NCBI RefSeq assembly: GCF_000003815.2
Contig: NC_049984.1
Location: 16,290,601-16,354,600 of the forward strand
From: Branchiostoma floridae
Taxonomy: Eukaryota > Chordata > Leptocardii > Amphioxiformes > Branchiostomatidae
Direction of reading: 5' to 3'
DNA length: 64,000 nt
Both the position numbers and the translations under genes were made by a program. Shown here piece after piece: positions 29,693-60,666 of the stretch (position 1 is its first letter; each line of letters begins with the position of its first letter). The notes beneath the pieces are model-generated. The model did no database searches and was not told the origin of the DNA. It saw nothing but the letters and a program-made list of their open reading frames with translations.

Positions 29693-31597
29693 ATGGCCTA
29701 CGTGATCCACCCCAGGGAGTCCCGCCCCTTCAGCTTCCTGCACCCCGCCATGGGGGAGGCGAAGACACACCCCACGGTCACCGCCTTCCTGCAACTAGAC
29801 ACAGAACAAATCATACTCAGATATTCTTCTTTCTTTTAATTTTCATAAATTTAAGATCATCTACTTTGCTGTTTGCATCGGATAAACTACGATCAATATG
29901 TGTGGTGGGTTCTTTGACGTGCTCGAGGTGTGATTGGATCTCCGCTTCACATGTCAAGTGAGAAAACTTAATTACCAAAGCATGTGTATACCTTGTTTTA
30001 GTCAAATGAGGTATTTAGTGAGGTGCCCTTGTAAGAGCGCACTAGTAGATCAATGTTGTCAAAATAAATACTCAAATTGTATCCAAAGTTTTGACACACT
30101 AAAGAAACACTGACTTTTTCCGGTTTCACTACTACATTTGTACTACAGTCCTCTTCACTGTTCCAGTGACCATTCCCTTAGAACACGTGACATAAGCAAT
30201 TGACCAATGGTGTTGGCTTGCAAAAGTGGCAAGATGGCGACGCTGATCTGTAATGTGCTTTGTTCTTTCAGATACTGCAAAGAACACAAAGACGTCCAAC
30301 CGGGAAGCTCTGTGGGAACTACTGACGTACCGGCCAAAACACTTCCGCTGGGCCGGAGCGGACCTCTTCCCGGGTGTCACCGCGGCGGCGGCGGAGATGG
30401 TGGTCTGGAGGTCAACTCGTGCCCGAGCGGACAGAAGTACATGCCACACGGTACGGGGATGGACAGCGGCTACCACAAGCTCATGAGCGAGACGTTTCGC
30501 GACACAGTTTCCAGCAAGTGCGACCCGTTTCTCCGCAACAAGCCCCTGGCGGTAGTGCTGGACAAGAACCAACTCGAGACTAGCGGCTACGCAGCTGCGC
30601 TGGCCGACATCACAAAGGAGCCTGTGTACGTTGTGGAGGCTTACCTGAACCAGCCCAAAGAACACAACATCCGCTGGACGGACGGCATCATGGAGGTCAG
30701 AGACGTGGAGGACCAATGGCACGCCGTCAGAGCTGCGTTCCGTTACGTCACACAGAAACCGTGGACGCGCATCCCTCTCACCACCAAGACCGTCGTCTTT
30801 AACCCGATCTCATGTTGTCTGGCGGAGGAAGGAACAAGCTTCTTGCCGCCATGGCGTATGAAGACTTCAACAAGCAGCAGGGAGGCACGGGGCTTCGCAT
30901 CCGGACCCCCCGTACGTTCCTGCGCGTGACCAAGGCTCAGATACCGACTGCTGTCCAGGCACTAGGCGGGAAAGCCGTCATCAAGGTCCCTTACAGCAAC
31001 TGCGGACAGGGGGTGTACACCGTGACGTCACAGAAGGAACTGGACAAGCTGATGGCGCTGGACCTTAACTACGAGAAGTTCATCGTCCAGGCCCTCGTCG
31101 GTCACAAGAACTGGTCCAGCTCCCAGTGGCACCACGCCTGCACCCTCCCGGACGAGGAGGGTAGGGAGTACGTCTTCGATACGCGCTTGATGGTCCATGC
31201 GACCCCTGACGGTTTCCGGCCGCTCTGCATCTTCAGTAGACGCGCCCACCTGCCACTACCAGACACCTTGGACGGGACCGAAGATTCCTGGGAGTACCTC
31301 GGCACCAATCTGTCGATCAAGGACACCATCGGCGCCTGGCAGTCGGACACGGAAAGGCTTCTGTCCGTGGACAACGAACCGTTCGAGGCGCTGGGGCTCA
31401 GCGTGGAAAATTTGGTGGACGGCTTCGTTCAAACCGTCATGGCGGCCACCGCCATCGACAAGATGTGCTGCCGCCTCGTACGGCCGGACAACTCGTTCGA
31501 CTTCGAAGAATTCGCGGTGCTGGCAGACGACAGAAAGATCCTGGAAGAGATCTACGATTTGTCGGACACATCTGATGAAACGAGTGTCGTCAATTAG
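29693..31597 (+). pseudogene. Copy A, ATP-grasp-like gene, disabled
   Basis: Same two-exon plan as copies B and D: an ATG exon (29693-29820) and a large exon (30272-31597). Defects: the exon 1 donor reads CAG|AT instead of CAG|GT; the acceptor-like tract upstream of exon 1 seen in D (TTCTTTGCAG) is replaced; an extra G after the DVQP codons shifts the frame until a compensating loss near 30405, so about 34 residues are scrambled, including the RWAGADLFPGV segment; a further 1-bp loss near 30825 is not compensated. A codon is also lost in the YMPHGG motif. From 30830 on the reading frame is intact to TAG and nearly identical to B and D. It pairs with D as the block 1 member of a segmental duplication. 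Confidence 0.85.
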
Positions 31598-31656
31598 TAG
31601 CACCTGGGGAAAGCACAGAGTCAGAGAGCATATTTCTCATGATTATTACGTTATGA

Positions 31657-32044
31657 TAGAACCACATTTACAAACCGGAGCCCGGCCGGGATGTTTGCGG
31701 GTCCAATAACTAAAAGAAATGCATACAAGGATATGCAAAAAAGCAGCTTCTCTAGCAACAGGATATGATTTTGGAAACGGTCAGACGTTTGTGACAGAGT
31801 GATACTGACGAAAACTTGGTGGATTCCAGTTGAAGCGTCTGACCGTTTCCAAAATCATATCCAGTTGCTTGAGTAACTGCTTTTGGCATATCTTATTACC
31901 TGGATGTCTAACCTACATCGACGCATATCAAGATATATAGAGATATACACAAATTATGACAGGGACCAAATTGTGTTTTTTGTATTTTGTATTATACTTA
32001 ACTTCAACAAACTGTCTGGCCGGGTCCCGGTTTGAACATTTGAC
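31657..32044. mobile_element. CCGGGCC-type TIR element 3' of copy A
   Basis: Ends ACCACATTTACAAACCGGAG and GGTCCCGGTTTGAACATTTG, with a nested MITE at 31754. Related elements lie in the same place behind B, C, D and E and, in compact form, at 58203-58400 and 62281-62487. Confidence 0.55.
31754..31868. mobile_element. MITE with 33-bp arms
   Basis: AGCAACAGGATATGATTTTG plus GAAACGGTCAGACG (31754-31787) is the reverse complement of 31836-31868, with one mismatch. The loop is about 48 bp. The part following it (ACCTGGATGTCTAACC) recurs at 7085. Confidence 0.85.
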
Positions 32045-32136
32045 CGTAATATAACTTTTTGGGGCTTCACGGCAGTAGCATGGTTCAACTGGTTGTTATT
32101 GGCAATATTTTATTAATGTTATCAAAAAGACCTAGC

Positions 32137-32259
32137 CTTGCACTCAAGAAAGGGCTGAAAGAAGAAGAAGGACCAAGGGATCGCGACCTGCTGGCCGCCA
32201 TGTTGGACAGAGATGTCTGGGACAGTATTATTCGCAGCAACACGTACATACGAGGATGA
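32137..32259 (+). other. Conserved 40-codon frame behind copy A
   Basis: Reads LALKKGLKEEEGPRDRDLLA then AMLDRDVWDSIIRSNTYIRG and stop. The same frame and stop are kept behind copies B, D and E, where a single-codon difference leaves the frame unchanged. Changes are not concentrated at third positions, so coding is unproven. It could be a former terminal exon or 3' UTR. Confidence 0.3.
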
Positions 32260-32779
32260 ACTGAACTGAATTGAGTCATGTTATTGTCCATAGAATGATG
32301 GCAAACTTCTGTCTGTTTTGAAAATATCGGTAAATATGTCAATAACGGGTAAACTAAGGGCAACCCTAATGTGCTTTTTCCAAACGTGCATACTGAAAAG
32401 TAGCCACAAAGGACAAATGTAAAGCTGCACATAGTACTCTAGTCCAAATGCCACAATGTGCTCTTGCATCTTATGAATGTGTTTGTAAGGCTGCAACGGT
32501 GAAATGATGTAAATTCACTGGTGATTTTGTATCGAATTGTCAAGTTCCAAAGATTACAACGTCCACATGACGTTATATTTGGTCAATTTGTCGATTACTA
32601 AAGCTATGGTGATGTTACAAAGGTTTAAGTACTCGGAGCGTGATTGGTGACACAATTAATGTCCACCGATAATTAAAGTCAAACTGGTTCTTTAATGTAA
32701 CTTCTGATTCACTGGTGATTTTTGTCATGTTTCGAAGACATTAATGTCCACTGAATTCATGAAATGAAGCAAAGGTCTG

Positions 32780-34150
32780 TACAACCCCGTACAGCAGAGT
32801 ATGTTTTACAAAGACTATACTAGATCCGCGCCCTCTAAAAGTGGTCGGTCTGGTTTTAGTGCAGTACCAAGGTGAAGCGTCCTGACAAACACTGCGCAGT
32901 CAGCCTACAGTAAGCATTCACTTAAGGGTCACTTTATACCCCCCCTCACATTAGGCGAAAATTGATCGGACGACGTGTCTGCGAGCTACAAATTACGAGG
33001 AGGCATGGCCCTGACGGGAAGGGGGGAACTCTGCCATTTCTTCGTCGGCATCAGGGTCATACCTCCTCGTAATTTAGAGCTCGCAGACTCGTCGTCCGAT
33101 CGATTTTCGCCTAATGTGAGGGGGTATTAGGACTACTTGAGATTCCGAAACCCCTTCCAGAGCGGTGAATACGGTTTGTCAATTTCCTAAAAAAAAACGT
33201 CGTAATTTTTTGCCCATACTTGCTCGCAGTGGGAACTAGTCCTAAAGTGCCCCTAAAGTGAATCAATACCTCAAAGTCTAAAGCAGGGTGCACAGGGAAG
33301 GTATATAGCAAAATTCAATATGTGTGAATACAATCTGCACAATATTACAAAATGAACTTTCTATTTGTTCGATCTCTTTTCGTTCTTTCGTTCGTGGAAA
33401 TCATGGAACTGTAGTCTTAAAACTGGACCAGCATGGTTTCCAAATTGCTGTTGTGCATATTATGATGATAACAATGTCCTTTTCAAGGACTGTAACGCAC
33501 TACTTTATACCCGAACTACTATTGGTGACGAGGTCAATTGAGGATAAATACTGTGTTATGTGAACTTACATAAGACACAAAGTGTCCGCCTTAAAGAAAA
33601 CATCTCTTGCGGACGACTACCATGTCGTAGTTTGCGTTATCAAAAAGTACCTGGAACCTTTGAGTTATTCAGGAAATGATTTTTCATGCGGCTGAATATG
33701 CAAGACCTGTATTGGTTTCGTTGCCGTCCTTGGGACCGCCATTTTGTTTCCCAACAGAGTGGATGGGGTGTACAATGGGAAGGGATGTCGTCATTCTTAC
33801 AAGTTTGTGATAGCAGAACCTGTATTGGATTAGGTCCCGTCTTTGAGTGCCTCCATTTTGCTTCCAAAGGAATGATGCATGATGGGAAGAGGTGATATAA
33901 CAGCAATATATTGTTACCCGATCAATCCCAAGGCAGTAGAAGTCTTTGGAAATGGCTCCTTATTCAAGTTACATATTTCTCATTTACAATATTAGTACCG
34001 TAGATGGCCATTATCTGTAAATGACGTATTCGTTCATACATGGCATTTTCATGTATTCTCCAGACGGCGAAGAGTCCCCGAAGCGTCAGATCACCAGCAC
34101 ACCACACGTCGTTCTCTCATACCACAATACCTGTCAATCACAGTGACGTC
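32780..34150. promoter_or_regulatory. Type II 5' flank of copy B
   Basis: Homologous, in order, to the flanks of C (40380-41734), E (58430-59394) and F (62680-63690), but not to those of A and D. It contains a conserved GACCGCCATTTTG (33735-33747; GCCCGCCATTTTG in C and F), resembling a YY1-type start-site element. Just before the ATG exon ATTCTCCAG (34060-34068) can serve as an acceptor, implying an upstream non-coding exon that I cannot place. Confidence 0.4.
32936..33127. mobile_element. MITE, ATACCCCCTCAC family
   Basis: Arms begin ATACCCCCCCTCACATTAGG (left) and end CCTAATGTGAGGGGGTAT (right), and pairing continues through GCGAAAATTGATCGGACGAC and GTCTGCGAGCT, about 60 bp in all. TTA or TA is duplicated at the ends. 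Absent from the type II flanks of C and E. Confidence 0.85.
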
Positions 34151-35843
34151 ATGGCCTACGTCATCCACCCCAGGGAGGCTCGCCCCTACAGCTTCCTGCA
34201 CCCTGCCATGGGCGAGGCGAAGACACACCCCACGGTCACCGCCTTCCTGCATCTCGACACAGAACAGATCATACACAGGTATTCTTACACTTCTTTTTCT
34301 TACCATTAAATTTTCAATCTTAGCATCGGAGAGACCACGTACAATCAATGGTTTGGGGTTTTGAATGATCTTCAATGTGGCAAGATTTCCTGAATAGTGG
34401 TTGCCCGTTTACGAAATGGCTATCGATTCAATGAATCTGGCTGCATGGATTCCACCAATAGCGGTACAGATTTGTAATTTTCCTTGTCCTTGCAGGTACC
34501 GCAAAGAACACAAAGAGGTCCAACCGGAAGCTCTATGGAAAATTCTGACGTACCGGCCTAAACACTTCCGCTGGGCCGGAGGGGACCTCTTTGCGGGTGT
34601 CGCCGCGACCGGGCAGCGCGAGATGGTGGTTGTAGAGGTCAATTCGGTCCCGACCGGACCGAAGTACATGCCTCACGGCGGTACGGGTATGGACAGCAGC
34701 TACCACAAGCTAATGGGCGAGACGTTCCTCGATACGGTCTCCAGTAAGTGCGACCCTTCTCTCCGCAACATGCCCCTGGCGGTACTGCACGACAAGCAGA
34801 ACACACATCGCCAGCAAATAGAGCCTATCGCCTACGCCACGGCGCTGGCCGACATCACAAAGGAGCCTGTGTACCTCGTGGAGACTTTCGTGGACCAGCC
34901 CAAAGAACACAGCATCCGCTGGACGGACGGCATCATGGAGGTCAGAGACGTGGAGGACCGATGGCACGCCGTCAGAGCTGCCTTACGTTACGTCACTCAG
35001 AAACCGTGGACGCGCATCCCTCTCACCACCAAGACCGTCGTCTTTAACCACATCGCCAGCGATCTGTCCGGGGGAAGGAACAAGCTTCTTGCCGCCATGG
35101 CGTATGACGACTTCAACAAGCAGCAGGGAGGCACGGGACTTCACATCCGGACGCCCCGTACGTTCCTGCGCGTGACCAAGGCCCAGATACCGACTGCCGT
35201 CCAGGCACTAGGTGGGAAAGCCGTCATCAAGGTTCCTTATAGCAACTGTGGACAGGGTGTATACACCGTGACGTCACAGAAGGAACTGGACAAGCTGATG
35301 GCGCTGGACCTTAACTACGAGAAGTTCATCGTCCAGGCCCTCGTCGGTCACAAGAACTGGTCCAGCTCCCAGTGGCACCACGCCTGCACCCTCCCGGACG
35401 AGGAGGGCAGGGAGTACGTCTTCGATACGCGCTTGATGGTCCATTCGACCCCTGACGGTTTCCGGCCGCTCTGCATCTTCAGTAGACGCGCCCACCTGCC
35501 ACTACCAGACACCTTGGACGGGACCGAGGATTCCTGGGAGTACCTCGGCACCAATCTGTCGATCAAGGACACCATCGGCGCCTGGCAGTCGGACACGGAA
35601 AGGCTTCTGTCCGTGGACAACGAACCGTTCGAGGCGCTGGGGCTCAGTGTGGAAAATTTGGTGGACGGCTTCGTTCAAACCGTCATGGCGACCACCGCCA
35701 TCGACAAGATGTGCTGCCGCCTCGTACGGCCGGACAACTCGTTCGACTTCGAAGAATTCGCGGTACTGGCAGACGACAGGAAGATCCTGGAAGAGATCTA
35801 CGATTTGTCGGACACATCTGATGAAACAAGTGTCGTCAACTAG
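34151..35843 (+). CDS. Copy B, circularly permuted ATP-grasp-like protein
   Basis: Exons 34151-34278 and 34496-35843 (intron of 217 bp, CAG|GTATTC to TTGCAG|G, an Arg codon split by the intron) give 491 residues without defect. Start: GACGTCATGG, the first ATG conserved in all copies. The exon 1 peptide (MAYVIHPREARPYSFLHPAM) is conserved. Exon 2 shows RWAGGDLF, then EVNSVPTGPKYMPHGG (about residues 83-98), a central region, then IRTPRTFLRVTKAQIPTAVQ and the glycine-rich loop VIKVPYSNCGQGVYTV, followed by KFIVQALVGHKNW and YVFDTRLMV. An E-x-N motif with Gly three residues later, placed before the Lys/Gly loop, is the order of circularly permuted ATP-grasp enzymes; by family these join a carboxylate to an amine using ATP. 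Substrate unknown. No signal peptide or membrane segment, so probably cytosolic. It uniquely carries HDKQNTHRQQIEP where the others have LDKNQLE. Fold assignment is inference; the gene itself is secure. Confidence 0.85.
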
Positions 35844-35897
35844 TAGCACCAGGGGAAAGCACGGAGATTATATTTCCCATATTTATTACGTTATGAT

Positions 35898-37883: not shown

Positions 37884-38602
37884 AGAGATCACCACCAGTA
37901 AATACATATGACTCCCCCGCCACCAGTGAATACATAAGAAGATCCCCCAACGCCAGTGAATACATATGAAGATCCCCCAACACCAGTGAATACATATGAA
38001 GATCCCCTAACACCAGTGAACACAGGTGAAGATCCCCCAACACCAGTGAATACATATGAAGATCCCCCAACACCAGTGAATACAGGTGAAGATCCCCCTC
38101 CACCAGTGAATACAGGTAAAGATCCCCCAATACTAGTGAATACATATTGAAAGATCCCCCCTCCACCAGTGAATACATATGAAGATCCCCCAACACCAGT
38201 GAATACATATAAAATCCCCCAACGCCAGTGAATACATATGGAGTCCCCCTCCACCAGTGAATACATATGAAGATCCCCCAACACCAGTGAATACATATGA
38301 AATCCCCCAACACCAGTGAATACATATGAAGATCCCCTAACACCAGTAGATACAGGTGAAGATCCCCCAAAACCAGTGAACACAGGTGAAGATCCCCCTC
38401 CACCAGTGAACACAGGTGAAGATCCCCCCAACATTAGTGAATACATATGAAGATCCCCAAACACCAGTGAATACAGGTGAAGATCCCCCTCCACCAGCGA
38501 ACACAGGTGAAGATCCCCCAAACATTAGTGAATACATGTGAAGATCCCCCAACACCAGTGAACACAGGTGAAGATCCCCCAACACCAGTGAACACAGGTG
38601 TA
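37884..38602. repeat. 30-bp minisatellite, about 24 units
   Basis: Unit CACCAGTGAATACATATGAA + GATCCCCCAA, with a common variant (CACAGGTGAA) in the middle. Because the unit is a multiple of three, long open frames appear on both strands, for example a plus-strand NTYEDPPTPV decapeptide repeat and minus-strand GDLHMYSLVL. Occasional 1-2-bp indels break each frame, which argues against coding. Confidence 0.92.
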
Positions 38603-41734: not shown

Positions 41735-42201
41735 ATGGCCTACGTCATCCACCCCAGGGAGTCCCGCCCATTCAGCTTCCTGCACCCCGCCATGGGCGAG
41801 GCGAAGACACACCCCACGCGGTCACCACCTTCCTGCAACTTGACACGGAACAGATCATACTCAGGTATCCTTACGCTTCTTTCTCTTACCGTTAAATTTC
41901 AAATGTTGTTGCTGGCATCGGTAACACGACAATTAATGGTTCTGGATTTTGAATGACCTTGAATGTGGCAAGATTCCCTGGATAGTAGTAGGCTATCGAT
42001 TCAATGAATCTGGTTGCATGGATTCCACCAATAGCGGTACAGATTTGTAATTTTCCTTGTTCTTTCAGGTACTGCAAAGAACACAAAGACGTCCAACCGG
42101 AAGCTCTATGGAAACTACTGACGCACAGGCCTAAACATTTCCGCTGGGCCGGAGCGGACCTCTTCCCGGGTGTCACCGCTGCCGGGCAGCGCGAAATGGT
42201 G

Positions 42202-42525
42202 GTCCTGGAGGTCAACTCGGAATCGGCCGGACTGAAGTACATGCCACACGGCGGTACGGGGATGGACAGCGGCTACCACAAGCTCATGGGTGAGACGTTT
42301 CGCGACACGATTTCCAGCAAGTGTGACCCTTCTCTCAGCAACAAGCCCCTGGCGGTAGTGCTGGACAAGAACCAACTCGAGAATAGAGCCTACGCCACGG
42401 CGCTAGCCGACATCACAAAGGAGCCTGTGTACCTCGTGGAGAGTTTCCTGGATCAGCCCAAAGAACACAACATCCGCTGGACGGGCGGCATCATGGAGGT
42501 CAGAGACGAGGAGGACCAATGGCAC
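42202..42525 (+). repeat. 324-bp direct duplication, left copy
   Basis: Coding DNA from the VLEVNS codons to the DQWH codons of copy C, matching 43840-44163 with no difference that I can find. Confidence 0.85.
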
Positions 42526-42529
42526 ACCC

Positions 42530-43796
42530 ATGTCCAGTATCAGGGTGAAATGCCCGAAGTTGTCCTAAGTTAAGTTAGATGTCAGAAGTTGTCCAAAGTT
42601 GTCCAAAGTTGTCCGTAGTTGTCCGAAGTTATGACGTCACGCTAACCATGACGTCATCCTAACTTTGGACAGTCAGCCGGGGGTGTGCGTAGTTGTCCGA
42701 AGTTGTCCGAAGTTATGACGTCACCATAACCATGACGTCATCTTAACTTTGGACAGTCAGCCGGGGGGTGTACGGAGTTGTCCGAAGTTGTCCGAAGTTA
42801 TGACGTCATTATAATTATTGTGTGCATTGTTCAAACGAACGTTAAGAGGAGAAATAAAAGACAAAAAGACTTGAAATAAATGAATTTTTTTACAATGCAT
42901 GAACATTGATTTTGTGCTGATTAATGTGCATCTATATTTTATTCATATATATGCGTGAGTGGTGTGTATCTTATTTACACATATATAAGTTTTTACTATA
43001 TATTAATTAACTTAGGACAACTTCGCACACTTGTTGACCTACCCTGCCCACTGTCCAAAGTTAGATGACGTCACGTAACTTTGCACAACTTAGAACAACT
43101 TCGCACACTTGTTGACCTACTATGCCCACTGTCCAAAGTTAGATGACGTCACGTAACTTTGCACAACTTAGGACAACTTCGCACACTTGTTGACCTACCC
43201 TGCCCACTGTCCAAAGTTAGATGACGTCACGTAACTTTGCACAACTTAGGACAACTTCGCACACTTGTTGACCTACCCTGCCCACTGTCCAAAGTTAGAT
43301 GACGTCACGTAACTTTGCACAACTTAGGACAACTTCGCACACTTGTTGACCTACCCTGCCCACTGTCCAAAGTTAGATGACGTCACGTAACTTTGCACAA
43401 CTTAGGACAACTTCGCACACTTGTTGACCTACCCTGCCTGCTGTCCAAAATTAGATGACGTCACGTAACTTTGCACAACTTAGGACAACTTCGCACACTT
43501 GTTGACCTACCATGCCCACTGTCCAAAGTTAGATGACGCCACGTAACTTTGCACAACTTAGGACAACTTCGCACACTTGTTGACCTACCCTGCCCACTGT
43601 CCGAAGTTAGATGACGTCACGTAACTTTGCACAACTTAGGACAACTTAGTTAGATTACGTCATCCAATAAATGTTTTGACGTCATCTGTGACTCCCGATA
43701 TAGCCTCAAAGCCAGTGGGAAACGGTTGTAACTTAGTACAACTTCGTACAACTTCGTACACCCTAACTTCGTGCACTTCACCCTGATACTGGACAT
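42530..43796. mobile_element. TIR element carrying CRE-motif minisatellite
   Basis: Left end ATGTCCAGTATCAGGGTGAA + ATGCCCGAAGTT; right end is its reverse complement with two mismatches. Inside: GTTGTCC repeats and two units of TTATGACGTCAC…CATGACGTCATC on the left, an AT-rich centre (42800-43010), then eight 78-bp units. No protein. It sits in exon 2 of copy C between the two 324-bp repeats, with 4 bp of extra sequence on the left and 43 bp on the right (TAGCTCAGTATC…ATGGACGA). Confidence 0.8.
43012..43650. repeat. 78-bp minisatellite, about 8 units
   Basis: Unit includes CTTAGGACAACTTCGCACAC, TTGTTGACCTACCCTGCCCA and CTGTCCAAAGTTAGATGACG + TCACGTAACTTTGCACAA. Unit starts seen at spacing 78 (AGATGACG at 43141, 43219, 43297). 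Seven of eight units keep TGACGTCA. Confidence 0.92.
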
Positions 43797-43839: not shown

Positions 43840-44163
43840 GTCCTGGAGGTCAACTCGGAATCGGCCGGACTGAAGTACATGCCACACGGCGGTACGGGGA
43901 TGGACAGCGGCTACCACAAGCTCATGGGTGAGACGTTTCGCGACACGATTTCCAGCAAGTGTGACCCTTCTCTCAGCAACAAGCCCCTGGCGGTAGTGCT
44001 GGACAAGAACCAACTCGAGAATAGAGCCTACGCCACGGCGCTAGCCGACATCACAAAGGAGCCTGTGTACCTCGTGGAGAGTTTCCTGGATCAGCCCAAA
44101 GAACACAACATCCGCTGGACGGGCGGCATCATGGAGGTCAGAGACGAGGAGGACCAATGGCAC
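43840..44163 (+). repeat. 324-bp direct duplication, right copy
   Basis: Second copy of 42202-42525; after it exon 2 of copy C resumes with GCCGTCAGAGCTGCC as in the other copies. Confidence 0.85.
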
Positions 44164-45082
44164 GCCGTCAGAGCTGCCTTCCGTTACGTCACTCAGAAAC
44201 CGTGGACGCCCATCCCTCTCACCACCAAGACCGTCGTCTTTAACCCGATCTCCTGCGATCTGGCCGGAGGAATGAACAAACTTCTGGCCGCTGTGGCGTA
44301 TGAAGACTTCAACAAGCAGCAGGGAGGCACGCGGCTTCGCATCCGGACCCCCCGTACGTTCCTGCGCGTGACCAAGGCCCAGATACCGACTGCCGTCCAG
44401 GCATTAGGCGGGAAAGCCGTCATCAAGGTCCCTTATAGCAACTGTGGACAAGGGGTGTACACCGTGACGTCACAGAAGGAACTGGACAAGCTGATGGCGC
44501 TAGACCTTAGGTACGAGAAGTTCATCGTCCAGGCCCTCGTCGGTCACAAGAACTGGTCCAGCTCCCAGTGGCACCACGCCTGCACCCTCCCGGACGAGGA
44601 GGGCAGGGAGTACGTCTTCGATACGCGCCTGATGGCCCATGCGACCCCTGACGGTTTCCGGCCGCTCTGCATCTTCAGTAGACGCGCCCACCTGCCCCTG
44701 CCAGACACCTTGGACGGGACCAAAGATTCCTGGGAGTACCTCGGCACGAATCTGTCCGTGAAGGACGCCGTCGGCAACTGGAGTAATGAATCGGAAAGGC
44801 TTTTATCAGTGGACAACAAACAATTCGAGACGCTGAAGCTTAACGTGGACAATTTGGTGGACGGCTTCGTTCAAACCGTCATGGCGACCACCGCCATCGA
44901 CAAGATGTGCTGCCGCCTCGTACGGCCGGACAACTCGTTCGACTTCGAAGAATTTGCGGTACTGACGGACGACAGGAAGATCCTAGAAGAGATCTACGAT
45001 TTGTCGGACACATCTGATGAAACGACTGTCGTCAATCAGTAGCACCGGGGGAAAGCACGGAGAGCATATTTCCATGATTATT

Positions 45083-46149: not shown

Positions 46150-47227
46150 TCTGCTTCGTACCTTGGCGTGATAGAAACCGGATGAAACCGCCTTGCATGG
46201 TAGGCTCGAAGCAGGCTTCTTCGGCACTGGCCAATTTTCTTTGCCTTGTAATGCCACGTCCTAGCGTTTTTCTCTCCCTGTATCTATCAGTATTTCTTTG
46301 CGTTGACTTTTGAAAAGCTGAAAAATAATGTTTCATATAAAACAGAACGTAACAAGGAGTTTTGATATGTAACCACCCAGGAAATAAGGGGGTCTGTCTC
46401 TCTCTCTCTTTCTTTTCTGTGTAGGACGTTTTTGTGGCTGTGTGTCTGTCCTGTGTGTTACTGACTGTGTGTGTGGCTGTGCACGTGAACAAGGGACCGC
46501 GCGCGTGTGATCAGTCTGTGGGTACGTGAACACAGCGTGCTCGTCTCATCACTTCAGCATCAGCCCTCCTATAATTTTAGATTCTGCTGGGCCGGGCTAC
46601 TAGCACTGACCGTCTTACGACAAGCACTGAGCGGCGATAGAACTCTCAACATCCGCCCGGTACTAAGCTCGAGGGTGCTACCTGCCTTTCGTGTTTTGAA
46701 AAAAAGGTCGGTACTTAAACATCATGTGTTGCTACTATCCAAACAGATGTTTTGTTTGTTTTTTAAGGCCTTTTTGTACATCCTTGTATTCAGATCCGCG
46801 TGTTCTACATCTTCTCAATCTTCACCTAGAATGTAGGCTACTGGAAAAACGTATAAAGATCCGCTATTCATTTTGATCTATACATCTGTTGGGAGGTGGT
46901 TTTTCACTTCGAACCTCCTCGTTTCACCAGCGCTCGAGCCCAAACCAGATTTTCCCCACATTGTTCCTTTGGGAATCCTAAGAGGCGCGGCATGTTTTTT
47001 TTCGGGTCACAAGGCGTAATTAGCCGTTTGAATTTTACGTAATTGGTCGCTCTAACACACCGTTAAGTGTATTTGGTGGCTGTGAAAGACTCGACGTAGG
47101 AATTTGTCGTAATGCAACAAGGAGCGCCCTAGAATTCGAAAGCGCTTTGTACGTTTGCTTGAACTGTCAAGGATTTGACGCGAAATTTATTATGGCAGAC
47201 GTCGCTTACGAAGGACCATTGGGACAA

Positions 47228-47500
47228 AAGCTGTTTTAGCGGAGGAGCTGTGTGCTCACAGTGAAGGGGCTGCATGCTCGGCGAAGGAGCTGTGTGCTCA
47301 CAGCGAAGGTGCTGCGTGCTCGCCGAAGGAGCTGTGTGCTCACAGCGAATGGGCTGCGTGCTCGCCGAAGGAGCTGTGTGCTCACAGCGAATGGGCTGTG
47401 TGCTCAGCGAAGTACCCGTGTGCTCACAGCGAAAGAGCTGTGTGCTCACAGCAAAGGGGCTGCATGCTCGGCGAAGGATCTGTGTGCTCACAGGTGAAAG
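47228..47500. repeat. 42-bp minisatellite, left arm end
   Basis: About six units of GGAGCTGTGTGCTCACAGCG + AAGGTGCTGCGTGCTCGCCGAA. Unit length is a multiple of 3, which explains the open frames on both strands. Mirror copy at 51740-52000. Confidence 0.9.
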
Positions 47501-49251
47501 GTCACCATTACAGACATGCGCAGAATTAGCATTTTGATGCCATCTTGCAAAAGTAAGTGTAAGAAGCCTTTTTGTTGGAAAATGTTGGCATTTTGGAGGT
47601 GGAAATTATAGGTAGGGGTTCTGGCTATTCTATTTTGTGAGAAAAATGGGCTTTCTACCATGTTTGGAGTGTCGTAGACAGTCTAAAGTAAGTATTTGGG
47701 TGTTATCAGGGAGGTCAAAGGTCACCAGAGTTTCATATTCTGTTTGTGGGGGCGCATTGCGCCGAACCAAATGTTTTCCAAATCGCCATATGCACTCTTT
47801 AGAAGTCAGACTTGCCTGCCAATGTGAGATTTTCACCAAGTAAACCTTAGGTAGGTGACTTTAGACAGCTTTTTTCTTACATGTTATGAATGCATTAGGT
47901 GCCTGTCAGCCATTGGAGGTCTGTGCCCTAACAGCAAAGGGCTGTGTGCACCAGGTTGAAATTGGCCGCCGATTGGTAGCCTAAGATCCAGCCGCCGATT
48001 CGTCATTAGACAAAACATAGGATCCCATTCAAACGCCCATTCGAAGAAACTAAAAATTCCTAATTTCCTAGGGAATTGTCTAGGGGATTGGTGCAAAAAT
48101 TGCTCAACTTATGGTTAAAGCATGAAACTTGGCATATGTGTTCAGTACAAAAAAAGGAAACAATGTCTAGGAGTGGAGCCAAAAGAAACAAGCTTTTACA
48201 TGGCAACTGTTGCTAGGCTTTTATGAAAAACCTGTTGTATTTTACAGCATAATGAGTGGAACTGATTTTAGGAAAACAAAACAGACATTATGTACCTTTG
48301 ATGCAGTGTGCACTGGATCTATAATGTGGTACTTCTCTCCACATTTAGTGCAAAAACTTCCCCTATACCAAATCACCCAAATTACTACATGTAATTTGTT
48401 CGTCTGTCACATAATGAAATTAAGAATCAGTTCATACTATTTTAAAATTAAAAAAAAAGGTTAAAGTCAGCATCATAACAAAGTACACCGTGAATGAGGT
48501 TTCAAGAGTCCAAAATTTGAGTTCACATTTCTCATATTCTGCTGCAACACGACATTAGATGTTAGCATGGCTGAAAAGGTTGAGCAGTGAAGTATAATAG
48601 CGATTTTTCTTGTTGGACCTGTCCGGTAAAACCGGACGTAAAACAGTGGACCAGATGTTGGACCGATTCGAAAATGAACAAATAATACTGACAGGCGTCC
48701 ACATGTTTGGGGCTTACATGTCGACGCAAATAACAAGAGCGAAGTAGAGGAGAGTTTATAGTCATTTTTACCGAGTACTGTAAATGCATTTACGTTTGCG
48801 GGGATTTAAATTTAACGGTAGAGGGAAAATGGAGTATTCGCAGTGGTTCTGAGTTCGCGGGTGCGCCATCCATGCATGTGAGTACTGCACTGTAGTAATG
48901 GAAAACACGGCACATTTACCAACCGCCAGTTGGAAGCCACAAATAGTGGTTACTCGGCAAGGGTGCTACAAACGGACAGAACAGTCCACTTTTGACTTTG
49001 ACAGTGCTGGCGTGATCAACTGGTACTGATCTAACCGTATCTACTCTCTGATACATAGTACAGACAGTACAACTTTCCTACCATGGTGTTATACACGGAG
49101 AAATGAATAATTACGAACCCCAAAAAATGTGTCTTTTTAAGTATTCATGTGTATTCACAGCACCTGAGCAGAAAAAAGTATGTATTATAGAATCTTGTCA
49201 TCAAGTCACAATTTTATACAACATAAGTTGACACTACAGTAACACTAAACA

Positions 49252-49518: not shown

Positions 49519-51739
49519 ACACCCCTGTAACTAAATGGGTAACACCTGAATATACAGCTGACATAACTCTAAATGAACACATCACAAGCTTACGGTCTCT
49601 TTTGACCCCTGTATTCAGAGGAAGAAGGCACGACAAGTAAACTCTCAGGTAAGGACTCAGCGATGTGTAGTGTACATTCGACACTGATGCTGTGGTTTCA
49701 ACTAAGATGAATTAACTGTGATTTTGTGTGCATTTTTGGACAAAGTTTTAACAACATGCTCACAAAAATAGTATGCTTAGAAATCCAGTAAGTTCCGAAC
49801 TCAATATTTGATAACTTCCTGGATCGACTATGACATAGTTTTCATTTTATACGCTTGTGGTTTATAGAAAAAAGTTTGATAGAAGCACAAACCGATAGAA
49901 ATGATCAGGTGTTGACCTATGTTGATGGGACACAAGAACATTTAAGACCAGCAAATCATATATGTGTAGAACAGAGCAGGTATGGTACACGTATTTGTAT
50001 TAAAGTCTCGTGACGATCACCAGATGTGGGGGTGTCGTGAGAATATTCAAATTAGATACGCACTGTATTGTCAACACTATATTGTATATTGTTAAAGACA
50101 CATTTTTTGGGGTTCGTAATTATTCATTTCTCCGTGTATAACACCATGGTAGGAAAGTTGTACTGTCTGTACTATGTATCAGAGAGTAGATACGGTTAGA
50201 TCAGTACCAGTTGATCACGCCAGCACTGTCAAAGTCAAAAGTGGACTGTTCTGTCCGTTTGTAGCACCCTTGTCGAGTAACCACTATTTGTGGCTTCCAA
50301 CTGGCGGTTGGTAAATGTGCCGTGTTTTCCATTACTACAGTGCAGTACTCACATGCATGGATGGCGCACCCGCGAACTCAGAACCACTGCGAATACTCCA
50401 TTTTCCCTCTACCGTTAAATTTAAATCCCCGCAAACGTAAATGCATTTACAGTACTCGGTAAAAATGACTATAAACTCTCCTCTACTTCGCTCTTGTTAT
50501 TTGCGTCGACATGTAAGCCCCAAACATGTGGACGCCTGTCACTATTATTTGTTCATTTTCGAATCGGTCCAACATCTGGTCCACTGTTTTACGTCCGGTT
50601 TTACCGGACAGGTCCAACAAGAAAAATCGCTATTATACTTCACTGCTCAACCTTTTCAGCCATGCTAACATCTAATGTCGTGTTGCAGCAGAATATGAGA
50701 AATGTGAACTCAAATTTTGGACTCTTGAAACCTCATTCACGGTGTACTTTGTTATGATGCTGACTTTAACCTTTTTTTTTAATTTTAAAATAGTATGAAC
50801 TGATTCTTAATTTCATTATGTGACAGACGAACAAATTACATGTAGTAATTTGGGTGATTTGGTATAGGGGAAGTTTTTGCACTAAATGTGGAGAGAAGTA
50901 CCACATTATAGATCCAGTGCACACTGCATCAAAGGTACATAATGTCTGTTTTGTTTTCCTAAAATCAGTTCCACTCATTATGCTGTAAAATACAACAGGT
51001 TTTTCATCAAGCCTAGCAACAGTTGCCATGTAAAAGCGTGTTTCTTTTGGCTCCACTCCTAGACATTGTTTCCTTTTTTTGTACTGAACACATATGCCAA
51101 GTTTCATGCTTTAACCATAAGTTGAGCAATTTTTGCACCAATCCCCTAGACAATTCCCTAGGAAATTAGGAATTTTTAGTTTCTTCGAATGGGCGTTTGA
51201 ATGGGATCCTATGTTTTGTCTAATGACGAATCGGCGGCTGGATCTTAGGCTACCAATCGGCGGCCAATTTCAACCTGGTGCACACAGCCCTTTGCTGTTA
51301 GGGCACAGACCTCCAATGGCTGACAGGCACCTAATGCATTCATAACATGTAAGAAAAAGGCTGTCTAAAGTCACCTACCTAAGGTTTACTTGGTGAAAAT
51401 CTCACATTGGCAGGCAAGTCTGACTTCTAAAGAGTGCATATGGCGATTTGGAAAACATTTGGTTCGGCGCAATGCGCCCCCACAAACAGAATATGAAACT
51501 CTGGTGACCTTTGACCTCCCTGATAACACCCAAATACTTACTTTAGACTGTCTACGACACTCCAAACATGGTAGAAAGCCCATTTTTCTCACAAAATAGA
51601 ATAGCCAGAACCCCTACCTATAATTTCCACCTCCAAAATGCCAACATTTTCCAACAAAAAGGCTTCTTACACTTACTTTTGCAAGATGGCATCAAAATGC
51701 TAATTCTGCGCATGTCTGTAATGGTGACCTTTCACCTGT

Positions 51740-52000
51740 GAGCACACAGATCCTTCGCCGAGCATGCAGCCCCTTTGCTGTGAGCACACAGCTCTTTCGC
51801 TGTGAGCACACGGGTACTTCGCTGAGCACACAGCCCATTCGCTGTGAGCACACAGCTCATTCGGCGAGCACGCAGCCCATTCGCTGTGAGCACACAGCTC
51901 CTTCGGCGAGCACGCAGCACCTTAGCTATGAGCACACAGCTCTTTTGCCGAGCATGCAGCCCCTTAACTGTGAGCACACAGCTCCTCCGCTAAAACAGCT
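51740..52000. repeat. 42-bp minisatellite, right arm end
   Basis: Reverse complement of 47228-47500 with a few substitutions. Confidence 0.9.
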
Positions 52001-52029
52001 TTTGTCCCAATGGTCCTTCGTAGTCGCTT

Positions 52030-54142: not shown

Positions 54143-56033
54143 ATGGCCTACGTCATCCTCCCCAGGGAGTCCCGCCCCTTCAGCTTCCTGCACCCCGCCA
54201 TGGGCGAGGCGAAGACACACCCCACAGTCACCGCCTTCCTGCAACTCGACACAGAACAGATCATACACAGGTATTCTTTTTTTTTCTTATTACCTGCTTT
54301 GCCGGGTAACCCGCGAATATGTGTGGTGGGTTATTTAACGTACTCGAAGTATGGCAGGATCTCAGCTTCACGTCTCACTAGAGAAGACGTCCCTTACCGA
54401 AGCATGTGTAAGATATTTGTTTTGAATCAAGTGAGGACATTGGCGTTAGTGCTCTTATAAGGGCACACTAGTCATGATAAATGTTGTCAAAATGAATCCA
54501 AAGCTTTGATACAATAAAGAAACACAGATTTTTTCCGGTTTCACTAATACTACTATAGCCTTCTTCACTATTCCAGTGATCAACCTTTTCGAGCCTGTGA
54601 ACTGACGAACACGTGACATTAGCAATTGACCAATGGTGTTGGCTTGCGAAAGCGGCAAGATGGCGACACTGATCTGTAATTTTCCTTGTTCTTTCAGATA
54701 CTGCAAAGAACACAAAGACGTCCAACAGGAAGCTCTGTGGAAACTACTGACGTACCGGCCAAAACACTTCCGCTGGGCCGGAGCGGACCTCTTCCCGGGT
54801 GTCACCGCGGCCGGGCGACCGGAGATGGTGGTCCTGGAGGTCAACTCGTGCCCGAGCGGGCAGAAGTACATGCCGCACGGCGGCACGGGTATGGACAGCG
54901 GCTACCACAAGCTCATGGGCGAGACCTTTCGCGACACAGTTTCCAGCAAGTGCGACCCGTTTCTCCGCAACAAGCCCCTGGCGGTAGTACTGGACAAGAA
55001 CCAACTCGAGACTAGCGGCTACGCAGCTGCGCTGGCTGACATCACAAAGGAGCCTGTGTACGTTGTGGAGGCTTACCTGAACCAGCCCAAAGAACACAAC
55101 ATCCGCTGGACGGACGGCATCATGGAGGTCAGAGACGAGGAGGACCAATGGCACCCCGTCAGAGCTGCCTTCCGTTATGTCACACAGAAACCGTGGACAC
55201 GCATCCCTCTTACCACCAAGACCGTCGTCTTTAACCCGATCTCATGTTGTCTGGCCGGGGGAAGGAACAAGCTTCTTGCCGCCATGGCGTATGAAGACTT
55301 CAACAAGCAGCAGGGAGGCACGGGGCTTCGCATCCGGATCCCCCGTACGTTCCTGCGCGTGACCAAGGCCCAGATACCGACTGCCGTCCAGGCACTAGGC
55401 GGGAAAGCCGTCATCAAGGTTCCTTATAGCAACTGTGGACAGGGTGTATACACCGTGACGTCACAGAAGGAACTGGACAAGCTGATGGCGCTGGACCTTA
55501 ACTACGAGAAGTTCATCGTCCAGGCCCTCGTCGGTCACAAGAACTGGTCCAGCTCCCAGTGGCACCACGCCTGCACCCTCCCGGACGAGGAGGGCAGGGA
55601 GTACGTCTTCGATACGCGCTTGATGGTCCATGCGACCCCTGACGGTTTCCGGCCGCTCTGCATCTTCAGTAGACGCGCCCACCTGCCACTACCAGACACC
55701 TTGGACGGGACCGAAGATTCCTGGGAGTTCCTCGGCACCAATCTGTCGATCAAGGACACCATCGGCGCCTGGCAGTCGGACACGGAAAGGCTTCTGTCCG
55801 TGGACAACGAACCGTTCGAGGCGCTGGGGCTCAGCGTGGACAATTTGGTGGACGGCTTCGTTCAAACCGTCATGGCGGCCACCGCCATCGACAAGATGTG
55901 CTGCCGCCTCGTACGGCCGGACAACTCGTTCGACTTCGAAGAATTTGCGGTGCTGGCAGACGACAGAAAGATCCTGGAAGAGATCTACGATTTGTCGGAC
56001 ACATCTGATGAAACGACTGTCGTCAATCAGTAG
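54143..56033 (+). CDS. Copy D, circularly permuted ATP-grasp-like protein
   Basis: Exons 54143-54270 and 54698-56033 (intron 427 bp, CACAG|GTATTC to CTTTCAG|A; split Arg codon) encode 487 residues with no defect. Motifs in order: MAYVILPRESRPFSFLHPAM; RWAGADLFPGV; EVNSCPSGQKYMPHGG (about residues 82-97); LAVVLDKNQLE; KPWTRIPLTTKTVVFNP; IRIPRTFLRVTKAQIPTAVQ; VIKVPYSNCGQGVYTV; KFIVQALVGHKNW; YVFDTRLMV; RLVRPDNSFDFEEFAVL. Its PSG after E-V-N-S matches most closely what is seen in circularly permuted ATP-grasp proteins. An ATG at 54633 inside the intron gives a longer open frame, but the conserved exon 1 and good splice sites favour the spliced model. AATAAA at 56135-56140 is about 100 bp after the stop. 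Sister of pseudogene A. Probably cytosolic; substrate unknown. Confidence 0.87.
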
Positions 56034-56083
56034 CACCGGGGGAAAGCACGGAGAGCATGTTTTGCAAGTTATTAGGTTATGAT

Positions 56084-56280
56084 AGGATCACACTTACAAT
56101 CTGAGGCACGACCGGGATGTTTGCGGGAACAGTAAATAAAAAAATGCATATCAAGATACACAAATTATGATATAACCACATTTACAAACCGGGGCTCGGC
56201 AGGATGTTAACGGGAACAATAGATAAAAAGAATGCATATATCAAGAGATATACTAGTACGCAAATTATGATAGGATCACA
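56084..56280. mobile_element. CCGGGCC-type element remnant 3' of copy D
   Basis: Two of the ~95-bp units seen behind copy C, then truncated directly before the conserved 40-codon frame. Confidence 0.45.
56135..56140 (+). terminator. Polyadenylation signal, copy D
   Basis: AATAAA within AGTAAATAAAAAAATG, at the same place behind copy E. Confidence 0.4.
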
Positions 56281-56300
56281 TTTATCATGAAAGACCTGGC

Positions 56301-56420
56301 CTGGCACCCAAGAAAGTGCTGGAGGAAGAAGATAGACTAAAGGACAGCGACCGCCTGGCCGCCATGTTGGACAGAGGTGTCTCGGACAGTATTCGCGAGA
56401 ACTCCTACATACAAGGATGA
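56301..56420 (+). other. Conserved 40-codon frame behind copy D
   Basis: LAPKKVLEEEDRLKDSDRLA then AMLDRGVSDSIRENSYIQG and stop; one codon shorter than behind A and B, with the frame kept. Confidence 0.3.
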
Positions 56421-57359: not shown

Positions 57360-57378
57360 GTTCTTTTAATTAATTTAC

Positions 57379-57412
<34 letters not shown>

Positions 57413-57455
57413 ACTGAATGGCTGGTTGATTGATTGATTGATTGATTGATTGAAA
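57360..57455. repeat. (GATT)n microsatellite
   Basis: Interrupted GATT repeats; counterpart behind E at 62003-62095. Confidence 0.9.
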
Positions 57456-57655
57456 TTCAGTCATCTTTAAGCTGTAAAGCTAATCTGTTTACGCCTAAGT
57501 TAAGCACGTGTTGACCCAACGACAGCTCGTGCAAGGGCTACTTAAACTATTATGTGTACTAGATCATAGTCTGATTCAATCTCTCTTAAAGCAGCCCACC
57601 CAACATAGTATCCGCCACCCTCCTAGAGGGGCCAGCTACAGCCCCGGACAGTACG

Positions 57656-58183
57656 CATGTCCTTAGCCAGGGGCGGTTCCCCCACACGCTCAAAGGTCCG
57701 CTTTTTCACGCTCGAAGGTTCACTTTTTCATGTCCAAGATTATTTTTCAAAGGCATGACTGATTCGCATTTTTCATCGATAGACATTTCATTCAATCTTA
57801 TTGAGTCTATCAGCAATATTTGCCCCAGAAAGTGCAGGAAATGGCTTTTGCAAAGGGTTCAGATTTGAAAATTTCCCCGGAATTCCATTGCGACGCCTTG
57901 TGCCTTTGGTGTCGGACATGGTGAAAATATGTCGGGGGAGTCGGCCTCAAAGACTTACGCCGAAAGCCTTGTGTATTTCAATAGAAATTCCATTAAACTT
58001 ATACAGCGAATTTTGACCGTCAAAATGCAGGAAATGGCGTTTAAGAGGGTCAAGATTTTAATTTTTCCGAGGGAGCATGACCCCGGACCCCCCTAGACAG
58101 CCTGTGGCGCTCGATGGCCCCACAAGTACCTAAAAAGAACCCTCCCATCCCCCCGCCCCAACAAAATCCTGGCTACGGACATG
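57656..58183. mobile_element. TIR element, CATGTCC family
   Basis: Ends CATGTCCTTAGCCAGG and CCTGGCTACGGACATG, 528 bp. It interrupts DNA that is continuous at 62265 (GGACAGCAGAGTTTGTG). Internal direct repeats AATGGCTTTTGCAAAGGGTT / AATGGCGTTTAAGAGGGT. No transposase. Confidence 0.7.
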
Positions 58184-58202
58184 AGTTTGTGTTAGGCTTC
58201 TA

Positions 58203-58400
58203 AAGGTCACATTTCCAAACCGGGCCCGGTCAGACAGCTTTTGTGAGCGACAAGAATGATATAAAAGATATATCAACATACACAAAATGTCAAAGTAAGA
58301 TTCATGGGCATAATATGTGTATATTTCCAGGTATCCATTTTAACTTTTCGTTTCGTTTCTTAAAACATCACGACCGGGCCCCGGTTTGAAATGTGACCTA
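58203..58400. mobile_element. Compact CCGGGCC-type MITE
   Basis: AAGGTCACATTTCCAAACCG and CGGTTTGAAATGTGACCTAA, about 198 bp; relative at 62281-62487. Confidence 0.8.
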
Positions 58401-58429
58401 AGGCTAACACGGACTATGCTAGATCTGTG

Positions 58430-59394
58430 GCCGCTTAAAGTGGTGGAACTGGTTTTGCTGCATTTTCAAGGTAAAGCGTCCTGCCAAGCACTCTGCAGTC
58501 GGTCTACACTGTAAGCATTCAACTACTCAAGATTCCGAAACACTTCCGGAGCGGTGAATACGGTTTGTTGATTTTTTAAGAAAGTCGTAATTGTTTGTCC
58601 TTGCTTTGCGCGGGATGGGAACTAGTCTGGCCTACATGCAGGTAAGGTTGTACTTCTGGCAGTCAGGTTTGGGACGCCTACTTGGTTTGAGTGGAAATCA
58701 CGTGATCGTCAAGGTTGACAACAAACAGTATGGGGATTCACGTAGTAAAGGACCCTAAAGTGGCTCGAAATCTCAAAATATATAGCAGGATGCACAGGGA
58801 AGGTACCAAAATTGAATATGTGTGAGTACAATCTGCACAATATGTCAAAATGAACTTGTATTTGCTCGATCTCTTTCCGTTCGCGGAGGTCATGGAACTG
58901 TAGCCGACACACAGGCAGTGACCCGTAAAGCCGGTTCACACGTGCGTACGTATTCAAGCCGTTTAAGGTCCGTATGGAATTCTTAGGCTGTACCAGGATC
59001 CACAGGTCGCTGGCAAATAGTAGAAATTGGAAAAATATGCATACATAACATGCCAGATGAGTTAGCTGTCCGAGGAGTATGGGCGACCAGCTAGCGACTG
59101 GCACGTTATCTGGCTATACTTGTAAAATTTCTATTTTTTCCACCGATCCGTGGAGCCTTTTAGAGAGGCTAAAACCTCCATACGGACCTCATACGGAATT
59201 GGATGTGTATTACGCAAGTGTGAACCCACTTTAACAGTATCAAGGCGCGAATTCATGACGTTCGGTGCGAAGAAACCGTGATAGTAATCGAACTTCTACA
59301 GTCTCAAAACTGAGCACGGTGTCCAAATTGCTATTGTGCACCAGTGGTTGTGCACAGGCATGATAATAACTACGACCTTTTCAAGGACTGTAAC
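58430..59394. promoter_or_regulatory. Type II 5' flank of copy E, deleted
   Basis: Homologous to the flanks of B, C and F up to TTTTCAAGGACTGTAAC, where it jumps directly into exon 2. The part with CCGCCATTTTG and the start-site region is missing, and a MITE (58926-59235) is inserted. Confidence 0.45.
58926..59235. mobile_element. MITE, GGTTCACAC family, second member
   Basis: AAAGCCGGTTCACACGTGCG and GCAAGTGTGAACCCACTTT ends; inner parts pair, as in 12428-12690. Confidence 0.8.
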
Positions 59395-60666
59395 CGCTGG
59401 GCTGGAGCGGACCTCTTCCCGGGTGTCACCGCTACCGGGCAGCGCGAGATGGTAGTCGTGGAGGTCAACTCGGTATCGGCCGGACAGAAGTACATGCCGC
59501 ACGGCGGTACGGGGATGGACAGCGGCTACCACAAGCTCATGGGCGAGACGTTTCGTGACACGATTTCCAGCAAGTGCGACCCGTTTCTCCGCAACAAGCC
59601 CCTGGCGGTAGTGCTGGACAAGAACCAACTCGAGAATAGCGCCTACGCCACGGCGCTGGCCGACATCACAAAGGACACAAAGGAGCCTGTGTACCTCGTG
59701 GAGAGTTTCCTGGACCAGCCCAAAGAACACGACATCCGCTGGACGGACGGCATAATGGAGGTCAGAGACGAGGAGGACCAATGGCACGCCGTCAGAGCTG
59801 CCTTCCGTTACGTCACTCAGAAACCGTGGACGCGCATCCCTCTCACCACCAAGACCGTCGTCTTTAACCACATCGCCAGCGATCTGGCCGGAGGAATGAA
59901 CAAGCTTCTGGCCGCCGTGGCGTATGAAGACTTCAACAAGCAGCAGGGAGGCACGGGGCTTCGCATCCGGACCCCCCGTACGTTCCTGCGCGTGACCAAG
60001 GCCCAGATACCGACTGCCGTCCAGGCACTAGGCGGGAAAGCCGTCATCAAGGTCCCTTACAGCATCAACGGACAGGGAGTGTACACCGTGACGTCACAGA
60101 AGGAACTGGACGCGCTGATGGCGTTTGACCTTAGGTACGAGAAGTTCATCGTCCAGGCCCTCATCGGCCACAAGAACTGGTCTAGCTCCCAGTGGCACCA
60201 CGCCTGCACCCTCCCGGACGAAGAGGACAGGGAGTACGTCTTCGATACACGCCTGATGGTCAATGCGACTCCTGACGGTTTCCGGCCGCTCTGCATCTTC
60301 AGTAGACGTGCCCACCTGCCACTGCCAGACAGCTTGGACGGGACCAAGGATTCATGGGAGTACCTCGGCACGAATCTGTCCGTGAAGGACGCCGTCGGCG
60401 GCTGGAATTCGGACACGGAAAGGCTTTTATCCGTGGACAACAAACCATTCGAGACGCTGAAGCTTAACGTGGACAATTTGGTGGACGGCTTCGTTCAAAC
60501 CGTCATGGCGACCACCGCCATCGACAAGATGTGCTGCCGCCTCGTACGGCCGGACAACTCGTTCGACTTCGAAGAATTCGCGGTACTGACGGACGACAAG
60601 AAGATCCTAGAAGAGATCTACGATTTGTCCGACACAGCTGATGACACGACTGTCGTCAATCAGTAG
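59344..60666 (+). pseudogene. Copy E, ATP-grasp-like gene, 5' deleted
   Basis: Homology starts abruptly at 59395 (CGCTGGGCTGGAGCGGAC), inside exon 2; exon 1, the intron and the first ~31 codons of exon 2 are gone, fused to flank DNA. An open frame of 440 codons starts at an ATG in the flank (MVVHRHDNNYDLFKDCN) and runs to TAG at 60664-60666. It keeps RWAGADLFPGV, EVNSVSAGQKYMPHGG and the loop as VIKVPYSINGQGVYTV (Ile-Asn instead of the Asn-Cys of the other copies), has a 3-codon duplication (KDTKEPVY), and shares its C-terminal type (LSVKDAVGG, FETLKLNVDN) with copy C. The frame is undamaged, so an N-terminally altered product is possible if transcribed; I favour a pseudogene. Confidence 0.7.

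Follow-up and report, generated by a model that had tools for sequence, protein, structure and literature searches.

What kind of protein is encoded by the repeated genes on contig NC_049984.1 of the lancelet Branchiostoma floridae, and how did an animal come by them? The genes lie in a stretch of 64,000 nucleotides (positions 16290601-16354600 of this contig, abbreviated C6 and forming the window of this study), for which a preliminary description had proposed a tandem family of circularly permuted ATP-grasp-like proteins with five copies in 31 kb. Our analysis leaves us fairly confident that the products of the array genes are amide (peptide-type) ligases and belong to a circularly permuted ATP-grasp family that has no name yet. 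To our knowledge this family has not been described before, and a search of the open-access literature retrieved no account of it in the lancelet or in Myxococcota, the bacteria in which we found its relatives. A family of this kind that is common to the lancelet and Myxococcota, and that stands in a seven-copy array in the animal, is unusual.

When the two exons of copy B served as tblastn queries against the window, five related copies, A to E, were found on the + strand between positions 29693 and 60666, and repeat analysis recovered the same five as one family of five 300-nt blocks that are 94-97% identical to a reference copy. Both approaches therefore confirm the number of copies proposed earlier. 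The exon-2 places delimited by tblastn mark likeness of DNA only; the proteins discussed here come from separate, frame-correct translation. The claim that all copies follow one two-exon plan stands in part. Exon 1 is present in four of the five copies (A, B, C and D), and copies B and D yield intact spliced proteins of 491 and 487 amino acids without internal stop, the introns of both being bordered by a GT donor and an AG acceptor. In copy E, by contrast, exon 1 was not found by tblastn in the window or in a locus consisting of this copy plus 1.5 kb upstream (L003), and its exon 2 is truncated at the 5' end and starts at RWAGADLF. Copy A has lost the donor, its junction reading CAG/AT compared with CAG/GT in B, C and D, exon 2 shifts frame in its 5' half, and by its sequence the copy looks like a pseudogene. 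Exon 1 of copy C carries a 2-nt frameshift. Minisatellites of 84-bp and 78-bp units (42607-42808 and 43009-43647) interrupt exon 2 of this copy and have a 300-nt piece on both sides, the segment 42202-42501 being duplicated at 43840-44139 with 100% identity. In the open frames RWAG-DLF is followed by E-V-N-S and then by VIKVPYSNCGQGV, for which copy E has the variant VIKVPYSINGQGV; this is the order that had originally been noted.

The array continues beyond the window. In the complete genome (513,431,437 bases, 431 contigs), exon 2 of copy D matched at least 10 places, all inside one cluster of about 40 kb (16320873-16361021 in C6 coordinates), and a bacterial relative matched at least nine places, all in the same cluster. 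Two further copies lie just to the right of the window at 16355223-16356557 and 16359702-16361021, namely L004, which is 84% identical to exon 2 of copy D and contains one TAG, and L006 (68%); exon 1 matches are recognisable for both. The tandem array thus has seven copies. The boundary between exon 1 and exon 2 falls at the identical residue in B and D and, as judged by match ends only, in L006. Ratios of nonsynonymous to synonymous substitution rates (dN/dS, NG86) ranged from 0.25 to 0.36 in all 15 pairs among six copies, and because of these low values we conclude that selection has acted on the protein during some of the time that followed the duplications, although ratios between copies neither date this selection nor show which copy is active at present.

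Relatives of the array proteins occur in bacteria. A collection of genome contigs from 84,980 species (genome_contigs) was scanned with two peptide patterns only, a procedure that says nothing on absence elsewhere; 60 stretches matched and one of them, L009 from a Myxococcales metagenome-assembled genome, encodes a relative (45% identity over residues 1-429, E 1e-130). The L009 protein in turn found matches in 57 of 377 Myxococcota genomes, its own genome counted, and in 52 of the 57 the match spans at least 460 of its 501 residues. The part encoded by exon 1 in B and D can be aligned to the N-terminus of the bacterial protein, so that homology extends over nearly the whole protein. For closer comparison we used L009 and 20 of the 57 genomes that were picked for flank length (L040-L059). 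Identity between the resulting 21 bacterial proteins and three lancelet copies is 40.7-49.5%, compared with 53-87% among the bacterial proteins, L040 (85%) and L041 (82%) being close kin of L009 and not independent of it. Plasmid and phage records contained no tblastn match to copy D, the plasmids none to the bacterial relative either, and four scans of viral contigs found no relative.

With the neighbours of L009 as tblastn queries, a relative of an AstE/AspA-type deacylase was found within about 1 kb of the ligase gene in 18 of 21 loci and was not found at L045, at L050, where the contig stops 54 bases past the ligase, or at L055. A GshB-like ATP-grasp protein is encoded no more than 3 kb away in 12/21 loci; the match at L042 covers only 72 residues, and L052, where the protein is about 6 kb off, is excluded from this count. 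The corresponding models were run on few proteins, PF24827 for the deacylase on those of L009 and L041 and PF02955 for the GshB-like protein on that of L009. Gene orientation differs between loci while the neighbours persist, which suggests that the ligase and its bacterial neighbours are functionally linked. In L009 the permuted ligase, the AstE/AspA-type deacylase and the GshB-like protein form a gene set at positions 7348-11105, which recurs among L040-L059. Genes for a PP2C and a Ser/Thr kinase come next after the set in L009 and L041.

Motifs support the assignment to the ATP-grasp enzymes. ATP-grasp proteins are defined by two lysines, a glycine-rich lid loop and a D...E-x-N metal site. 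In an alignment of 24 rows, made up of the 21 bacterial proteins, copies D and B, and L006, we checked 19 columns chosen from an earlier list of invariant positions, and all 19 were identical in every row. Among the residues invariant in 24/24 rows are D73, E90, N92, N219, K231, K280, G287, G289, Q315, D349 and R351 (numbering of the L009 protein, A6), so that the hallmark residues are kept throughout. Their order is likewise invariant, D...E-x-N standing ahead of N-K, K...G-x-G, Q and D-x-R, and by this order the topology would be a permuted one, with the E-x-N segment N-terminal to the lysines and the glycine loop in all 24 rows. In the unpermuted GshB-like neighbour, on the other hand, K131 and K168 come first and E-x-N follows at 294.

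Searches of Pfam, NCBIfam and PDB with the array proteins gave no significant sequence match. Six window pieces produced only sub-threshold Pfam matches in a scan at E 10 whose listing extends for the most part to about E 0.1; the ATP-grasp family PF02222 was hit in five of six (E 0.024-0.15). It was also the best match when the 24 family members were compared with Pfam one by one (E 0.03, in 3/24). Neither the permuted ATP-grasp families CP_ATPgrasp_1/2 (PF04174/PF14403) nor the glutathione synthetase families PF03917/PF03199 were listed for the six window pieces (E 10) or the 24 members (E 1). Four window pieces had no match over the cut-off in NCBIfam. Against PDB chains, one lancelet copy reached only E 1.2 and a bacterial relative only E 1.4, and a profile of 24 relatives yielded nothing at E 10. 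Weak matches to PF03347 (E 0.11), PF01902, PF04184, NF038268 and TIGR00768 were given no weight.

In hhalign, an alignment of 40 family members (34 bacterial, six from the lancelet) was compared with either 11 GshB-like or three CP_ATPgrasp_2 proteins. Two local segments stood out: the lid segment with lysine and glycine loop aligned with the GshB-like proteins (score 32.5), and the D/E-x-N segment aligned with CP_ATPgrasp_2 (26.9). Both scores exceed those of all 60 column shuffles made for each (highest 22.4 and 24.4) as well as those of the reversed alignments (15.0 and 20.6). A Foldseek search with a model of a bacterial protein returned only ATP-grasp enzymes, by title and general knowledge, in the first 25 of 717 rows, and the only two rows below E 0.001 were both chains of human glutathione synthetase, albeit from a model of low confidence.

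Several results weigh against this assignment. No family library reaches its cut-off, the best match being that to PF02222 at E 0.024 with 14.7 bits compared with a cut-off of 27. The profile comparisons are weak, with P 0.0023 for the 40 members against the GshB-like proteins and P 0.017 against CP_ATPgrasp_2, the latter rising to P 0.64 in global mode, while the L009 protein by itself gave P 0.5 and the window copies alone P 0.027 against CP_ATPgrasp_2. A doubled GshB-like alignment gave no alignment over the junction, and rotating CP_ATPgrasp_2 left the score at 26.9 because one local segment alone carries it. Sequence scores by themselves thus do not prove the permutation, and the order of the segments rests on the motifs. 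The model of copy D exon 2 is weak (mean predicted local distance difference test, pLDDT, 37.1; predicted template modelling score, pTM, 0.27), as is that of the bacterial protein used for Foldseek, which was computed with five window rows (pLDDT 44.8, pTM 0.43). The Foldseek TM-scores are low, 0.24 in the best row, and the best VIA-align Z of 8.6 barely exceeds the 7-8 typical of models without a clear match; a few VIA-align rows represent other folds, such as isocitrate-dehydrogenase types, and the absence of a permuted family from these rows carries no meaning. Given the motifs in 24/24 rows, two local segments that score above their shuffles and glutathione synthetases as nearest folds, an ATP-grasp protein of permuted order is the likeliest reading, and the original idea of a permuted ATP-grasp fold is probably right.

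How would such a protein work? The strands of the ATP-grasp core that bear the metal ligands D...E-x-N, placed last in an ordinary ATP-grasp protein, would form its N-terminus. After them would come a Rossmann-like part, the N-K helix, a lid containing lysine and the G-x-G loop, and the D-x-R strands. In ATP-grasp ligases a carboxylate is phosphorylated by ATP and the product is attacked by an amine, as stated in a paper on the fungal ligase Cp1B (PMC12568646). By analogy to such enzymes, the array proteins would convert a carboxylate to an acyl phosphate at the expense of ATP and with the help of Mg2+, and attack by an amine would release the amide, ADP and phosphate. Ligation of the ATP-grasp type is the most likely activity because the metal site, the lysines and the lid loop are all kept. 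In Myxococcota the product is probably a small peptide or pseudopeptide with at least two amide bonds, one of them formed by this enzyme, since an AstE/AspA-type deacylase usually and a GshB-like ligase often adjoin it; the two ligases would assemble the product, and the hydrolase may take off a group or recycle the product. In the lancelet only the ligase was found; it was tandem-duplicated into seven copies, and of the five copies in the window two are intact and three broken or truncated.

The similarity to bacterial proteins hints that the gene crossed between bacteria and the animal and then multiplied. Whether the family came from bacteria had been raised as a question from the outset. 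A bacterial link is borne out by the Myxococcota relatives, but origin is another matter: in a tree of the 24 rows, rooted at the midpoint only, the lancelet proteins (three rows) group together (100/100) and are separate from the 21 bacterial ones. The tree neither shows nor excludes a transfer from Myxococcota, and it leaves the direction open. That a ligase gene of Myxococcota or a near donor entered the animal lineage and subsequently gained an intron and was duplicated in tandem has, in our judgment, an even chance of being correct. This agrees with the occurrence of the gene in Myxococcota, usually as part of the conserved gene set, and queries with the bacterial deacylase and GshB-like proteins matched nothing in the lancelet genome, an empty answer that proves little in a protein search of this kind; PF24827 had two matches there, both on contig C12 and not on C6 with the array. 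The long branch of the animal clade, which is not nested within the bacteria, speaks against it; beyond Myxococcota the search covered the two-pattern scan and, among eukaryotes, the lancelet.

The same long branch and the shared position of the exon boundary would favour an old eukaryotic gene, inherited vertically with many losses and exchanged with Myxococcota in ancient times, in either direction. We know of no other eukaryotic relative, the lancelet being the only eukaryote searched, and rate the probability of this history somewhat below even. A fuller scenario, in which the lancelet lineage took up a bacterial permuted ligase that in Myxococcota is part of a ligase-deacylase-ligase pathway not described so far, multiplied it in tandem to seven copies and now makes a lineage-specific peptide or amide that is unknown in other animals, is tentative and on the doubtful side.

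It seems improbable that the array is a graveyard in which no copy is active today. The state of A, C and E would suit such a view, but B and D are open throughout and possess all 19 checked residues, and the dN/dS values argue for selection, even if they do not tell its timing. Descent from an ordinary eukaryotic glutathione synthetase as a diverged paralogue, without any bacterial link, would explain the equal motif order and the human enzyme as top Foldseek match; in view of the missing PF03917/PF03199 matches, of PF03917 exons at four other places of the genome and of 41-50% identity to bacterial proteins, we deem it very unlikely. Bacterial contamination or an assembly error, to which the likeness to bacterial proteins and the high GC content of exon 2 (0.585-0.590 compared with 0.428 for the window) might point, can be practically dismissed, as the contig around the array measures 28 Mb in a genome of 513 Mb, B and D have introns of the GT-AG type, the array includes minisatellites as well as decayed copies, and its copies form a separate clade with less than 50% identity to the 21 bacterial rows.

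Features of the array in the window, with positions counted from its first nucleotide.
Feature	Position	Strand	Basis
Copy A, exon 1 (donor GT changed to AT)	29693..29820	+	tblastn, junction read
Copy A, exon 2, frame change in 5' half	30272..31597	+	tblastn, open frames
Copy B, exon 1, GT donor next	34151..34278	+	tblastn, splicing
Copy B, exon 2, AG acceptor before; spliced 491 aa	34496..35843	+	splicing
Copy C, exon 1, 2-nt frameshift	41735..41864	+	tblastn
Copy C, exon 2, 5' piece	42069..42529	+	tblastn, repeat analysis
84-bp and 78-bp minisatellite arrays separating copy C pieces	42607..43647		repeat analysis
Copy C, exon 2, 3' piece; first ~300 nt a copy of 42202-42501	43843..45042	+	tblastn, repeat analysis
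Copy D, exon 1	54143..54270	+	tblastn, splicing
Copy D, exon 2; spliced 487 aa, intact	54698..56033	+	open frame, splicing
Copy D, Asp, exon-2 residue 30, predicted metal ligand	54786..54788	+	24/24 rows; putative role
Copy D, E-V-N, residues 47-49, predicted Mg2+ ligands	54837..54845	+	E, N in 24/24 rows; putative role
Copy D, first Lys, residue 191, of GGRNK	55269..55271	+	24/24 rows; putative role
Copy D, K-V-P-Y-S-N-C-G-Q-G, residues 240-249, second Lys and glycine loop	55416..55445	+	K, G, G in 24/24 rows; putative role
Copy D, D-T-R, residues 305-307	55611..55619	+	D, R in 24/24 rows; putative role
Copy E, exon 2 5'-truncated, exon 1 not found	59394..60666	+	tblastn, open frame

The window contains several other features. 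A near-perfect inverted repeat at 47207-49147 and 50083-52022 consists of two abutting arm pairs, together about 1.94 kb long, that are 99% complementary, with 935 nt between the inner arms and short tandem repeats in the outer arms. At 37893-38596, 23.5 copies of a 30-bp minisatellite are overlapped by long open frames on the - strand. The remnant of a reverse transcriptase, which we take to be of the non-LTR (long terminal repeat) type, lies on the - strand at 2412-4631, with matches to RVT_1 and zf-RVT in two adjoining frames. On the + strand, an NHL-repeat protein is encoded at 18079-19515, and a frame at 17152-17631 appears B-box-like by eye and has no Pfam match at E 0.001.

Permuted ATP-grasp ligases make glutathione-type peptides and, to judge from Cp1B, whose fold resembles that of homoglutathione synthetase, precursors of protease inhibitors as well. 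A family without a library model, arrayed in an animal and part of a conserved gene set in bacteria, points to a pathway that forms amides, and the array would offer a test case for the multiplication of a bacterial-type enzyme in an animal genome.

Among the known systems, the GshB/RimK-type ATP-grasp enzymes (PF02955, PF08443) share the lid segment with lysine and glycine loop and differ in being unpermuted, the lysines preceding E-x-N in the GshB-like neighbour. The TTL-like ATP-grasp domain of C7orf58 was dropped as a candidate, being nearest to tubulin-tyrosine ligases according to PMC2824669, and so was MysC of mycosporine synthesis, which was considered without sequence comparison. Cp1B, the fungal ligase of E-64 biosynthesis (9cjn, 486 residues), appeared in the eighth Foldseek row (E 4.5e-3) and was not among the matches listed when PDB chains were searched by sequence with the array family. 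Its authors likewise could not detect sequence identity with ATP-grasp enzymes that have been characterised, and they name homoglutathione synthetase among the nearest folds (PMC12568646).

Eukaryotic glutathione synthetase (PF03917/PF03199; for example human GSS and soybean homoglutathione synthetase) resembles the array proteins in length and in that both lysines come after the Asp and Glu of the metal site, and it is the best fold match of the weak model of the family. It differs in its Pfam families, for which the array proteins have no listed match, in the location of its genes and in its glycine loop, which is unlike that of the array family. A 1999 paper by Polekhina et al., cited in both PMC2845819 and PMC2213659, refers in its title to a gene permutation in this enzyme. 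In the lancelet, PF03917 exons lie on contigs C1, C6 (two places) and C7, none of them in the array, and glutathione synthetase may itself be a small family in this genome. The preliminary description had recognised no animal family of such make-up; this must be corrected, since for the yeast enzyme a paper on the T. brucei glutathione synthetase gives Asp130 and Glu146 for the metal site and 324 and 382 for the lysines, the same order as in the array family (PMC2845819).

Similar in arrangement are CP_ATPgrasp_1/2 (PF04174, PF14403; solved relative 3n6x). The part that aligns with CP_ATPgrasp_2 is the D/E-x-N segment; the scanned members have no Pfam match to these families, and the profile comparisons remain at P 0.017-0.64. 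The motif order is the same: for D, E-x-N, N, K, K, G, Q and D-x-R the successive spacings are 17, 132, 12, 49, 9, 26 and 32 in copy D and 13, 150, 10, 47, 9, 29 and 24 in the CP_ATPgrasp_2 protein L061, the distances from D to E, from K to K and from K to G being nearly equal.

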